DNA of 64,000 bases from Desulfosporosinus nitroreducens (GTDB lineage Bacteria; Bacillota; Desulfitobacteriia; Desulfitobacteriales; Desulfitobacteriaceae): NCBI RefSeq assembly GCF_023897015.1, contig NZ_JAMHFY010000001.1, positions 186,001 to 250,000 of the forward strand, in the 5' to 3' direction. The notes under the pieces were generated by a model that saw only the letters and a program-made list of their open reading frames with translations, had not been told where the DNA came from and did no database searches. The stretch's first letter is position 1; every line of letters starts with the position of its first letter. This document shows, piece by piece, positions 3,326 through 11,271 of this stretch. The position numbers were made by a program, and so were the translations under genes.

Positions 3326-3367
3326 AAAAGAGGCAGGAAACACTTCAGCAGTGTTTCCGCCTCTTTT
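3326..3367 (-). terminator. Intrinsic terminator after the GntR regulator
   Basis: An almost perfect hairpin with arms AAAAGAGGC-A-GGAAACACT and AGTGTTTCC-GCCTCTTTT around a 5-base loop overlaps the stop codon of the GntR-type gene and is followed by T-rich sequence. It can work in both directions. Confidence 0.8.
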
Positions 3368-4085
3368 ATTTACCTTCTAAGGTTATAGCCTTGGCAAGTT
3401 GGTTCTCTACCCCAACTAAGTGATCTAGCATAAGTTTCTGAGCTTTCTTTGCATCGTGATTTTTAATTGCTTCGTAGATAAAAAGATGCTCCCTGTAAAG
3501 TTTTTCTGGAGTATCTTTATGTTCATAAAGTTTACTGCGACTGCTTTTCAAAGTCTTTCTCATTGTATCCGAAAGAGTGTTCATTAGACGAAACAAGATC
3601 TTGTTATGCGTCGCTCTGGCAATTGCATAATGAAAGTTATGATCCGCCTCTTCTCCTAAATGATACAATTCCAGATCTCTGCGCATGACTTCCAAGGCTT
3701 CAAACATTTCACAAATCTCATTTTCCTCTGCTCTCTCAGCCGCCAGTCCCGCAGCTTGTACCTCTAGAATTTTGCGTGCTTCGTAAAGTTCCAGATCAGT
3801 ATCTTTTTCGATGAAAAGCATCCAGGCTAGGGGTGTAACTACTGATTCTATATTAACCTGCCTGATGTAAGTCCCTTCACCAGAACGAACTTCAATTAAT
3901 CCCATCATCTCAAGGGCACTGATGGCTTCCCGTATAGACGCACGACTTACCTGAAACCGTTCAACTAATTCCCGCTCAGAAGGCAACCGGTCGCCAGGTT
4001 TTAGCTGCCCTTGAGCAACTAGTTGACCGATCTGATCAACAATTTGCTCATAGATTTTTCGGGTTCTAATGGGTTTTAGTATCAC
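3366..4085 (-). CDS. GntR/FadR-subfamily transcriptional regulator of the lactate locus
   Basis: About 239 residues. Start chosen at the GTG behind AGGAGTG (residue 7 of the longest frame). Residues 5-75 form a GntR winged helix-turn-helix (LKPGDRLPSERELVERFQ, then VSRASIREAISALE and a GLIEVRSGEGTYI wing). The rest is an all-helical FCD effector domain with the metal-ligand type residues of the FadR/LldR/PdhR group (EARKILEVQAAGLAAERA; DHNFHYAIARATHN). Proteins of this group bind a TGGTNNNACCA-like palindrome and respond to small carboxylates. Such motifs occur in both lactate promoters here (6963-6976, 8858-8868), so regulation of the neighbouring dehydrogenase and permease by lactate is a sound inference. 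Confidence 0.88.
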   Translation of the reverse strand: MILKPIRTRKIYEQIVDQIGQLVAQGQLKPGDRLPSERELVERFQVSRASIREAISALEMMGLIEVRSGEGTYIRQVNIESVVTPLAWMLFIEKDTDLELYEARKILEVQAAGLAAERAEENEICEMFEALEVMRRDLELYHLGEEADHNFHYAIARATHNKILFRLMNTLSDTMRKTLKSSRSKLYEHKDTPEKLYREHLFIYEAIKNHDAKKAQKLMLDHLVGVENQLAKAITLEGK

Positions 4086-4159
4086 CCTATTCACTCCTCG
4101 CACACCAGTTGTATACCTATAACCGTTCTTAGTGTACCATAGCTAACCCCTATATGAAA

Positions 4160-7112: not shown

Positions 7113-8767
7113 TCATTGTATAAATGTTTCGATCGTCGGTATCATACCCGGAACCACATATGCCTGCAGGTAGGTCATAATGCAAACAAGAAGTAACAGA
7201 AAGAGTGAATGTTTAAGTGTAAAGCGGAAAAGGTCAGACTCTCTTCCAACTAAGCCAGTTGCAGCCGTCGCTACCGCAATGGATTGTGGAGAAATCATTT
7301 TCCCAACAACTCCACCGGAGCTGTTTGAGGCAATGGTCAGAATAGGGTTAACTCCAACTTGTTGGGCAGTAACATTTTGCAGTTGACCGAACAGAGCGTT
7401 AGCCGAGGTGTCTGAACCCGTTAAAAATACACCGAGCCAACCTAATACAGGAGCAAAGAAAGGAAACAAGTGACCGGTTCCAGCAAATAAGATACCTAGT
7501 GTATACGATAGTCCAGAATAGTTCGCAATGTAGGCGAAGCCCAATACTGAACTGACCGTAATAGTCGGATAGATGAGAGTTTTCAATGTCGCCCGTGCTA
7601 CTTTGGCTCCTCTGGCCGGGCTAATTTGAAGAATGAACATTGTAATAAGTGCAGAGATCAGGATCGCTGTCCCGGCAGCTGAAAAGAACTCCCATTTATA
7701 ATAAGCGGCATAAACCGTTGGTTTATTAACAATCGGCATAGTTTTAACAACTAGGCCATCTAGCCCAGGCCAATGCGGAATGCTAATGAGCCATTGCAGC
7801 TGTTTCGTCACAAAATCTTTGAAGCCCGAAGTTCCCCAAATTCCCACCATGACTGTGAGAACTAAAAACGGAGACCAAGCTTTAAGAATCTGACCGCCAG
7901 AATACTTTTTATATTGTTCAACCTTTTCAGTCTTCTCATTTGGAAAACGCCATATATTTTTAGGTTTCCACACTTTTAGTAAGGCCGCCGTGGCAATCAA
8001 TGAGAACAGCGAAGAAATAATATCAGGAAGCATAGGACCCAGGTAGTTAGAAGACCACCACTGTGCTACTGCAAAGGTAATACCTGAGACAGCGATAGCA
8101 GGGAGAACCTCTTTTGCCCCTTTCCAGCCAGCCATGAGAATAATTAAATATAATGGTATAAAAACTGACAAAAAGGGTAGTTGCCGTCCAACGGCTGCGG
8201 AGATTATGTCCGCATTAACACCGGTTACTGCACCAGCGGCAATAATCGGTGCACCAATCCCTCCGAAGGCAACCGGGGCAGTGTTTGCTATTAAGCAAAG
8301 ACCTGCCGCATAGAGAGGTTCAAAACCCAGTCCAATTAAGATCGCACCCGTAATTGCAACGGGAGTACCAAATCCAGCCGCCCCCTCCAAAAACGCACCG
8401 AACGAAAAAGCAATGAGAAGGGCCTGAAGACGACGGTCATTGGACAAAGAAGCAATTGAACTTTTAATTATATTCCAGCTTCAACGGTAAGGTTATATAG
8501 AAAAACAGCTGTTACAATAATCCAAGCAATAGGAAACAATCCATTCAGAATTCCAAGAGCACTTGCTGAAAGTGCAATACCTAATGGCATCTTGTAAACA
8601 AGAACAACTATAATAATAGTAAATAAAAGCGTTGATACCCCAGCGATATGGCCCTTCATACGTTTAATTGCTAAAGCCCATAATAAATAAAAAATTGGTA
8701 ACGAAACCACAAGTGCCGTTAGTCCAACGCTACCTCCAAGTGCGGAATAGTTCTGTGTCCATTCCAA
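7113..8767 (-). pseudogene. lctP: L-lactate permease, split by a frameshift
   Basis: Two consecutive frames together make one LctP/LldP-family transporter. The 5' part (from the TTG at 8767 behind AAAGGTG, or GTG at 8779) holds the first helices and ends ...FLYNLTVEAGI-stop at 8468. The 3' part resumes in another frame with IIKSSIASLSNDRRLQALL, GFSFGAFLEGAAGFGTPVAI and the remaining helices to 7113. Family members have an unbroken VEAGxFExIKSSI segment, so about three residues are missing and the frame is shifted. Loss of 7 or 8 bases explains it better than a homopolymer slip. Either the permease is inactive, or a sequencing fault is present. The family assignment is very secure; whether it is broken in the living cell is not. 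Confidence 0.8.
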
Positions 8768-8857
8768 GTCAAATACCACCTTTCGTTATGTAGACTTTTT
8801 TTATTCCTCCATTTTTCCCGTTTGTCTTCTTCCTTTCCTAAATATAAAATCTTCCTC

Positions 8858-9032: not shown

Positions 9033-9214
9033 GTGTATTTAGTTCCAAAATCAATAATGTAAGCGTTGTTCAAGACAAAAATGCACAGCAGGATCGGACT
9101 CCTGCTGCACTTGCTGTTCCTTTGATGGATGAACTCGACTTTCCAGCTATGGCTGCCGTCCGCAGCAGGAATAATGAACTCTTAAAACTCCTCAATTAAT
9201 AGCTTATTACTAAC

Positions 9215-9790
9215 TCAACTTTCGCACCGCAGTTGTGCGAATAAAGCCTTGATATAACTGGGCAATTCACTAATCCAGTTGTGTAGTTGACTAAGCGATT
9301 CTTTGTTCTTGGGTTTATTCGGTAGTAGATCGAGTACAAATGCCATCAATTGGCGCAAGGCTGTTTTTAAGTCTAAATCCATGACTTCATCTGCAAAAAG
9401 GTAAAACAATCCTCCCAGTGAGCGTTCATCGTTATTTTGTCTACGTTCCCACTCAAGGATGAGATAACGAGTAAAGACGATTATCGTGTGGCTAATCATC
9501 ATATCGAATGACCGTCCTTGGAATTCGGTACCCAGTTTTAAGTGTGATTTAGCCACCTTGAAAAAGGTCTCGATACCCCAACGCATCCCATAAATCCTTA
9601 TAATTTCAGCATTATCTAATGCAAGATCTGTCGTTAGAATCGCCAACCAATCTCTGTGGTTGTTCCGATTCTGGACGAAGACAATCTTAAGAGATAACCC
9701 TGTTAAGGTTTGAACACGGACTGAACCCTGAATTTCTGCTTTATGGTTTTTGGGGATTTTAGCATAAAGCTCACTTAGACTTAATGCATT
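9215..9790 (-). mobile_element. 3' remnant of an IS4-family insertion sequence
   Basis: The transposase half of the chimera. It retains the Y-x2-R-x3-E-x6-K catalytic segment but lacks the 5' half of the IS. I could not define a terminal inverted repeat past the stop codon. Confidence 0.65.
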
Positions 9791-10456
9791 TCCCTCGCGA
9801 AAATAAGGCAACGTCATATCGGCAATTTGTAAAACATTCTGAGCTTGAATGGCGGCAATCTGCTCCTCTTCAGGATAAACTGTTTTGACAATTAATAGAA
9901 AAAGACCCACCCCAAGACCATTGAATATCATCATTGGCATTGCAATGACCCTAATAAAGTTCCATGCTTCAACGAAAGGACGAGCAAGCATAAGAATTAT
10001 TATCATTTCCAAAATTTGAGCAATTACCCCGAGCCCTATACCAACCTTCCAATCGCAGGCTTTTTCTCTTGCCAGCCAATAAACTAACCCTCCCAACAAG
10101 CCCTGAATTATGGGCGATACTGCACAAGCTAAACCAGTAAATCCGCCATAGAATATATAGAGGTGTAATCCTGTAATAGTGCCAACCCCTAATCCTACCA
10201 GAGGTCCGCCGAGCAACCCTGCACTTACTGTTCCAATTGCGCTCGTATTAGCCATAGCACCATGTATTGAGACCCCCGAATAAGTTCCTGCCATAGAAAA
10301 TACTCCAAAAACAATAATCAAGGTCAACCTCTCACGTTGGGTTATCTGGGAACTCAAATATTTACGAAAGACTAGACTCTTCGTCATCAGTAATCCTACT
10401 GTAGCAATAATGCCAAGCCTTTCAGCTAATTCCAATAGTAAATCAATAGGATTCAT
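9215..10456 (-). CDS. In-frame chimera: LytS-type sensor N-terminus fused to an IS4-type transposase C-terminus
   Basis: 413 residues in one uninterrupted frame made of two unrelated halves. Residues 1 to about 222 are a 5TMR-LYT membrane sensor (GVSIHGAMANTSAIG, GGPLVGLGVGTITGLHLY) and the first GAF residues (IQAQNVLQIADMTLPY), as in LytS histidine kinases; the kinase part is absent. Residues from about 223 are the C-terminal part of an IS4-family DDE transposase, with LSELYAKIPKN and the Y(2)R(3)E(6)K signature in IRIYGMRWGIETFFKVAK. The N-terminal Asp motifs of the transposase are missing, so it cannot transpose. Most simply, an IS inserted in lytS and a later deletion joined the two. Whether it is expressed is unknown; AAGGGG precedes the ATG. 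Confidence 0.8.
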   Translation of the reverse strand: MNPIDLLLELAERLGIIATVGLLMTKSLVFRKYLSSQITQRERLTLIIVFGVFSMAGTYSGVSIHGAMANTSAIGTVSAGLLGGPLVGLGVGTITGLHLYIFYGGFTGLACAVSPIIQGLLGGLVYWLAREKACDWKVGIGLGVIAQILEMIIILMLARPFVEAWNFIRVIAMPMMIFNGLGVGLFLLIVKTVYPEEEQIAAIQAQNVLQIADMTLPYFREGNALSLSELYAKIPKNHKAEIQGSVRVQTLTGLSLKIVFVQNRNNHRDWLAILTTDLALDNAEIIRIYGMRWGIETFFKVAKSHLKLGTEFQGRSFDMMISHTIIVFTRYLILEWERRQNNDERSLGGLFYLFADEVMDLDLKTALRQLMAFVLDLLPNKPKNKESLSQLHNWISELPSYIKALFAQLRCES

Positions 10457-10631: not shown

Positions 10632-11096
10632 TTAGCGTGAATACTTTTGTTCTAGCATTCTTAACTCCTGCTGAAATGATTGACTAAGTCGAAATAGTAA
10701 ACGCTCCATATCCAATCTGTGAAGAGATATGTTTTCAGGGCTTAAAAATTCAATTTTGCGGAACTCTGGTTTAATCAAGAGAGGGAGCAAATCATCGATA
10801 TTCTCAATACGCAAAGTTAGAATGATCGGAGCATAGGCAACCTCATGGTGTCGGCGTCCATTCTCTTCTGATACTGTATAAACATCTAAACTTAGATCAA
10901 CATCCTCAATAATGATTCCTTGAAGCGGCACATTGCGAAGTAAAGCAACTTGTTGCTCTCGCATTGTTTCAGCCATTATTTCCTTACTCTTCCCTCCAAA
11001 GAAAAAGCGTCCATTTTTTGATTCACCGCGAAAATCCACTCTAATCCGTACGCGAATGTGTTCTGTCAGGAGCTCATTCCCAATCCGAATCTTCAT
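10632..11096 (-). CDS. Uncharacterised protein, 154 aa
   Basis: Start placed at the ATG behind GGAGAGA (residue 9 of the longest frame). The protein is soluble, with an N-terminal basic beta-rich stretch (MKIRIGNELLTEHIRVRIRV), a central acidic segment and a C-terminal amphipathic helix (RLLFRLSQSFQQELRMLEQ). No motif, membrane segment or family is recognised. It has its own terminator and stands alone between the LytS chimera and the divergent stress-protein gene. Codon usage resembles the surrounding chromosome, so it is probably native. Confidence 0.6.
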   Translation of the reverse strand: MKIRIGNELLTEHIRVRIRVDFRGESKNGRFFFGGKSKEIMAETMREQQVALLRNVPLQGIIIEDVDLSLDVYTVSEENGRRHHEVAYAPIILTLRIENIDDLLPLLIKPEFRKIEFLSPENISLHRLDMERLLFRLSQSFQQELRMLEQKYSR

Positions 11097-11271
11097 TACT
11101 GGTTCTCTCCGTTTCCCCATCTTACTACATTCTGTCTTTTTATTTCATATAAATTAAATATTCTCCATAGATTTGATTTTCTCCTGCAAGCCTTGCTTTA
11201 GGGTTGGAATTTGTGGACATACTAAGAAAACTTCAACGGGTATATATGCATTTAAAAGGAGGATAAATTAC

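Follow-up and report, generated by a model that had tools for sequence, protein, structure and literature searches.

IS-associated deletion scars and gene fusions are a common kind of structure in bacterial genomes. The usual transposase-made adjacent deletion preserves the IS end, and the reading frames on the two sides of a deletion are expected to agree in one deletion out of three. LytS-type sensor kinases, such as BtsS of E. coli, carry a 5TM-5TMR_LYT domain. Two reports describe LytS-type systems as pyruvate-responsive and as controlling pyruvate transporters (PMC5626966, PMC10653868). In BtsS, Arg72 and Arg99 bind pyruvate, in a pocket that also has Cys and Ser (PMC10653868).

The window analysed here is a stretch of 64,000 nts, corresponding to positions 186001-250000 of the 400-kb contig C11 in a 5.46-Mb, 95-contig Desulfosporosinus draft genome with an estimated contamination of 4.61%. 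The ORF listing of the window contains a 413-aa ORF in a single minus-strand frame at 10456-9215, with neither a stop nor a frameshift along its 413 codons. Residues 1 to ~222 correspond to LytS; the frame then continues without a break into the C-terminal 191 residues of an IS4-type transposase. The lytS part (9797-10456, minus strand) extends from the start codon to about codon 220, contains the whole 5TM-5TMR_LYT domain and no kinase part, and is 70-79% identical to the lytS of six congeners. The transposase part (9218-9790, minus strand) encodes residues 260-450 of a 450-aa parent. In Pfam, PF07694 (5TM-5TMR_LYT) matches residues 29-192 with an E-value of 2.6e-45 and covers positions 3-168 of a 169-position profile. 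In NCBIfam, transpos_IS4_4 (NF049925) matches residues 198-411 with an E-value of 3.5e-67 (profile positions 223-447 of 449); its score of 227 bits is below the 250-bit cut-off set for the whole protein, as expected for half a protein. Both matches are far above chance. The Pfam profile DDE_Tnp_1 gave a weak match at residues 234-319 (22 bits versus a cut-off of 23), and neither Pfam nor NCBIfam matched a kinase/ATPase core after the membrane domain, where the transposase stands instead. A preliminary description, made from the letters alone, had proposed an in-frame LytS-transposase chimera at 9215-10456 with a full 5TMR-LYT membrane sensor, a junction at about residue 222 (about 9790), and the last ~190 residues of an IS4-type transposase including its Y-R-E-K segment. 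Each of these points is borne out by the ORF, the two domain matches, the junction alignments (9791-9797), the 191 transposase residues and the presence of Y289, R292, E296 and K303.

Comparison with the closest known systems shows what is present and what is missing. Like LytS-type sensor kinases, the chimera has a complete membrane sensor domain, but it is without the kinase part and no cognate LytTR gene was found in its own genome. It shares with IS4-family transposases of the NF049925 kind the C-terminal 191 residues, the right inverted repeat and four residues that, by residue count, we take to be the Y-R-E-K motif; what it lacks, relative to them, is the first 259 residues, the two aspartates of the triad and the left inverted repeat. 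Only E296 of the DDE triad is kept: by analogy with the DDE family, the other two catalytic positions would be D117/D118 and D225 in the complete copy, and these fall in the lost part. As in other IS-associated deletion scars, one end lies in a host gene, the other in the IS, and adjacent genes are lost; the chimera differs from these only in the agreement of the two reading frames.

Unfused lytS genes are found in 6 of the 28 other genomes of the genus (G027, G012, G004, G007, G010 and G008) with 70-79% identity. The comparisons were made with these six orthologs, all at least 70% identical, leaving aside paralogs of at most 44%. The orthologs match the chimera from residue 4 to residues 225-236, within open frames of 569-585 aa. 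At the three loci with ORFs listed, lytS is directly followed by lytT, encoding a 253-aa LytTR regulator (566 + 253 aa in G007 and in G027, 573 + 253 aa in G010), and lactate permease genes are located further downstream. Upstream of lytS, the window is collinear with five of the six sister loci, the exception being G008. This includes a conserved gene of unknown function encoding 162 aa (10632-11120, minus strand), which is present as an ORF in G007, G010 and G027 and is matched by neither Pfam nor NCBIfam. A deletion of 3 bp in the ANTxAIG region, a conserved part of the sensor, was considered as a lesion; since G010 and G008 are equally long there, this was rejected.

The ligand pocket was compared by placing the BtsS positions by motif rather than by alignment to BtsS. 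At the positions of Arg72 and Arg99, the chimera has Ser and Leu, five of the six orthologs (L042-L047) have Ser and Phe, and G008 alone has Arg at both. The pocket Cys and Ser are kept in all seven sequences, the region corresponding in the chimera to residues 72-114 (window 10110-10245). At the 12 paralog loci tried, the motif pattern gave no match. The residues suggest that the ligand of this LytS group may be different, perhaps lactate.

Collinearity on both sides of the scar was observed with G004, G007, G010 and G012, and in part with G027. Beyond the IS remnant, similarity to the sister loci resumes at 9177, runs to 9086, and is found again at the permease gene from ~8790. In G010, the most collinear sister in this region, about 2.2 kb separate the resumption points (L043, 8852 to 11017), and this interval contains the remaining part of lytS and all of lytT. 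When the G027 proteins were used as queries against the chimera's own genome, the kinase part of LytS found only paralogs (9 matches, the best at 44% on C2), and LytT likewise only paralogs (57 matches, the best at 46% on C2, with one of 33% elsewhere on C11). Because no match is better than a paralog, the remainder of lytS and lytT appear, from these searches, to have been lost rather than moved.

The parental IS is present in the same genome as one complete copy on contig C35, 1509 bp long and encoding a 450-aa transposase. Its ends read CTCAACTTTCGC...GCGAAAGTTGAG, and ATACTTAA flanks it on both sides as a target duplication. Window positions 9215-9806 are 94% identical to this copy over 592 bases. 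The preliminary description had suggested a comparison with an intact lytS and the parental IS of the same genome: the IS was found complete, but the lytS kinase part was matched only by paralogs. Other remnants of the IS were found as fragments on C37 and C4. Target duplications of 7-8 bp occur at two IS copies, on C35 and in G022, the only ones at which they can be read, the copy G016:C46 meeting a contig end. Compared with four other copies (C35, G022:C307, G016:C46 and G004:C25; G016:C27, G004:C26 and more distant or short ones were left out), the chimera has only four codons of its own in the IS half, and three of these four changes are silent. In G004, the matches on contigs C22, C39, C50 and C65 are confined to the final 28-30 residues of the transposase; these short IS ends are perhaps small non-autonomous derivatives, and the C39 match, located at a contig end, may be a cut copy.

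Alignment of the chimera with the six lytS orthologs and the IS copies places the junction at 9791-9797 (minus strand), where 1 to 6 bases (C to CGAGGG) can be assigned to either parent. Two further sequences of the IS alignment, L021 and L022, do not help to place the junction, being either too short or too distant. The lytS sequence continues through TAT TTT CGC and the IS is followed from GAG GGA AAT onward, the junction word occupying 9786-9799; DNA similarity to the sister lytS genes stops at 9791-9798. In the protein, F219-R220 belong to LytS, E221-G222 are ambiguous and N223-S413 are transposase residues 260-450. Hence, the breakpoint on the IS side is internal to the element, at codon 260 of the transposase. 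At the other end, the terminal inverted repeat CTCAACTTTCGCA (plus strand; feature at 9214-9226, minus strand) holds the stop codon at 9215-9217, and the copies on C35 and in G022 have the same ends. Because this inverted repeat is present, the retained end is the true right end of the IS. A pattern search for the exact 13-base repeat gave five sites in the genome, of which only this one is on C11, and none for the reversed control. The left inverted repeat is absent from the chimera, and the remnant does not have complete IS ends. The host bases at 9206-9213, read directly beside the IS end, are where a surviving copy of the target duplication would be expected, judging from the duplications at the two other copies; the second copy would have gone with the deletion.

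Taken together, the locus is best explained as an IS-associated deletion scar arising from two events and most likely non-functional, a reading to which we give a probability of about 0.9. In an ancestor with the arrangement still found in the sister species, the IS4-type IS would have inserted downstream of lytS, within lytT or immediately behind it, with the same orientation as lytS. A subsequent deletion would have run from about codon 220 of lytS into the interior of the IS. Judged by G010, it would have taken ~2.2 kb of host DNA, comprising the kinase part of lytS, the whole of lytT and the greater part of the spacer, together with ~926 bp from the start of the IS. Because its other breakpoint lies inside the IS, the scar is not the usual transposase-made adjacent deletion, and illegitimate recombination at the few shared bases would be the probable route, the lytS and transposase frames coming into register by chance. 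The product, if made, would join a membrane domain to half of a transposase catalytic domain left without its other half, and the locus would have been deprived of its LytS-LytT two-component system. By sequence, neither half is likely to be able to work as before, and there is no sign of a new function.

The best surviving alternative, still improbable, is an assembly error in which an intact lytS-lytT pair and a complete IS exist and were wrongly joined inside the repeated IS. The genome is a 95-contig draft, and elsewhere in the genus contigs terminate at copies of the IS (G004 C25 and C26; G016 C27), which makes such an error conceivable. However, the junction is internal to a contig of 400 kb, and synteny holds on either side of it. 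Moreover, two observations make an assembly collapse unlikely: the lost portions of lytS and lytT were found on none of the 95 contigs, and the IS half differs by ~6% (94% identity instead of 100%) from the single complete copy found.

A second alternative, less probable again, is that the fusion forms a new functional protein, in which the sensor domain anchors the transposase remnant or functions as a decoy for another LytS-type kinase. The 413-codon open frame is preceded by a plausible ribosome-binding site before its ATG, and an intact LytS paralog (a 590-aa frame on C2) could serve as a partner. A variant given equally little weight is that the fused protein was kept as a dominant-negative sensor, the kinase-free LytS domain pairing with the LytS paralog or acting as a ligand sink, with the transposase tail as a harmless cytoplasmic extension. 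Against a new function, the kinase part is absent, two of the three catalytic residues are gone by position, the partner lytT was not found in the genome, the adjacent permease gene is broken too, and the fusion occurs in 1 of 29 genomes. The same observations, permease aside, lend support to the statement of the preliminary description that decay is more likely, and give none to its suggestion of a new domain combination.

On the lytS part, the substitution rates give at most a hint of relaxed constraint. Branch dN/dS values for the chimera were 0.28, 0.30 and 0.33 with G012, G007 and G004 as outgroups, versus 0.09, 0.08 and 0.08 for G027, and the bootstrap fraction without an excess was 0.017-0.022; these outgroups are close to one another and the three results are not independent. 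With G010 as the outgroup the contrast is reversed (0.14 for the chimera versus 0.22 for G027, bootstrap fraction 0.66), and the suggestion of relaxed constraint is not consistent across outgroups. The open frame and the few unique codons in the IS half fit a young scar and would also fit a maintained gene; we read the chimera as a young scar.

The distribution of the fusion was assessed in several collections. None of the 28 other genomes of the genus, sampled at one genome per species, has a match joining both halves, leaving the fusion in the chimera's own genome. Within the genus, matches to the lytS half extend no further than residue 236, and those reaching the transposase end start at residue 173 or later. 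Two of the latter, G011:C46 (496 aa) and G026:C91 (460 aa), align with the chimera from residues 173-174 to 413 at 46% and were rejected as spanning matches, their length and alignment indicating that they are probably transposase frames. Starts at residues 211-217 in G016:C27, G004:C25 and G004:C26 were considered as a recurrent truncation at the same transposase residue; this was rejected for C25 and C27, in which the matches stop at contig ends, and the match on G004:C26 starts 76 bases from a contig end. Among plasmid records, 131 match part of the query and none has one place covering 80% of it (20 of the 131 among the matches listed). A search of named GTDB genomes with six short peptides, which reaches close relatives only and may omit the window's own record, gave 10 loci, all starting from residue 211 or later and hence containing the transposase half only. 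A weakly informative phage search with the junction region gave no match, and no account of a LytS-transposase fusion was found among the papers listed, going by their titles and the opening lines of their abstracts.

The least probable account, in which the IS inserted directly at codon 220 of lytS and separate events removed the 5′ part of the IS and the DNA further downstream, would leave the same 5′ half but predicts the left inverted repeat at the junction; instead, the junction enters straight into transposase codon 260, so that a deletion endpoint lies exactly there.

Several features surrounding the deletion scar are worth describing. The lactate permease gene beside it (7113-8779) is frameshifted, being divided into ORFs at 8779-8468 and 8447-7113, and in alignments it has 7 bases fewer near 8474 than in G007 and G010. 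Another lactate permease gene, on C33, is open along its whole length. A gene encoding a 245-aa regulator (3366-4103), FadR/GntR-like from reading its sequence, is located downstream of the lactate-use genes and is similarly placed in G010 by DNA similarity, and a relative in G007 lies between lytT and the permease genes. By analogy with the pyruvate-responsive LytS-type systems, the lost locus may have served as a switch responding to lactate or pyruvate and lying beside its transporter.

Between the scar and the permease gene lies a conserved intergenic element of ~75-92 bp (9086-9177, minus strand), which is 80-88% identical to copies near the lct genes of G004, G007, G010, G012 and G027 (L042 11034-11108, L043 11017-11108, L044 12817-12907, L045 3946-4036 and L046 6307-6381). 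Its sequence corresponds to part of the lctP coding region in inverted orientation, with 85% identity to an internal segment of the genome's other lctP (G000:C33:190585-190677), so that an RNA transcribed in the direction of the operon would be antisense to that lctP mRNA. A CAGCAGG/CCTGCTG hairpin is possible in all six copies of the element, and the word is absent from 12 aligned lctP segments. Three pairs of the stem are changed on both sides, though the covariation term, at -0.39, is small and two of the copies are near-identical. An Rfam scan of the element gave no family at the gathering score. From its sequence, the element is a candidate regulatory RNA, or a relic.

The chimera is one more example of the common deletion-scar kind, and the inverted lctP element with its hairpin is the more interesting of the two. 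For annotation, the ORF is likely to be named LytS or transposase, though it is neither. If expressed, the fusion would be a clean example of an IS deletion making a kinase-less sensor. For the organism, the scar marks the loss of LytS-LytT beside the lactate-use genes in one Desulfosporosinus, in which the adjacent permease gene is broken too; hence, the uptake of lactate or pyruvate in this lineage may differ from that in its sister species.
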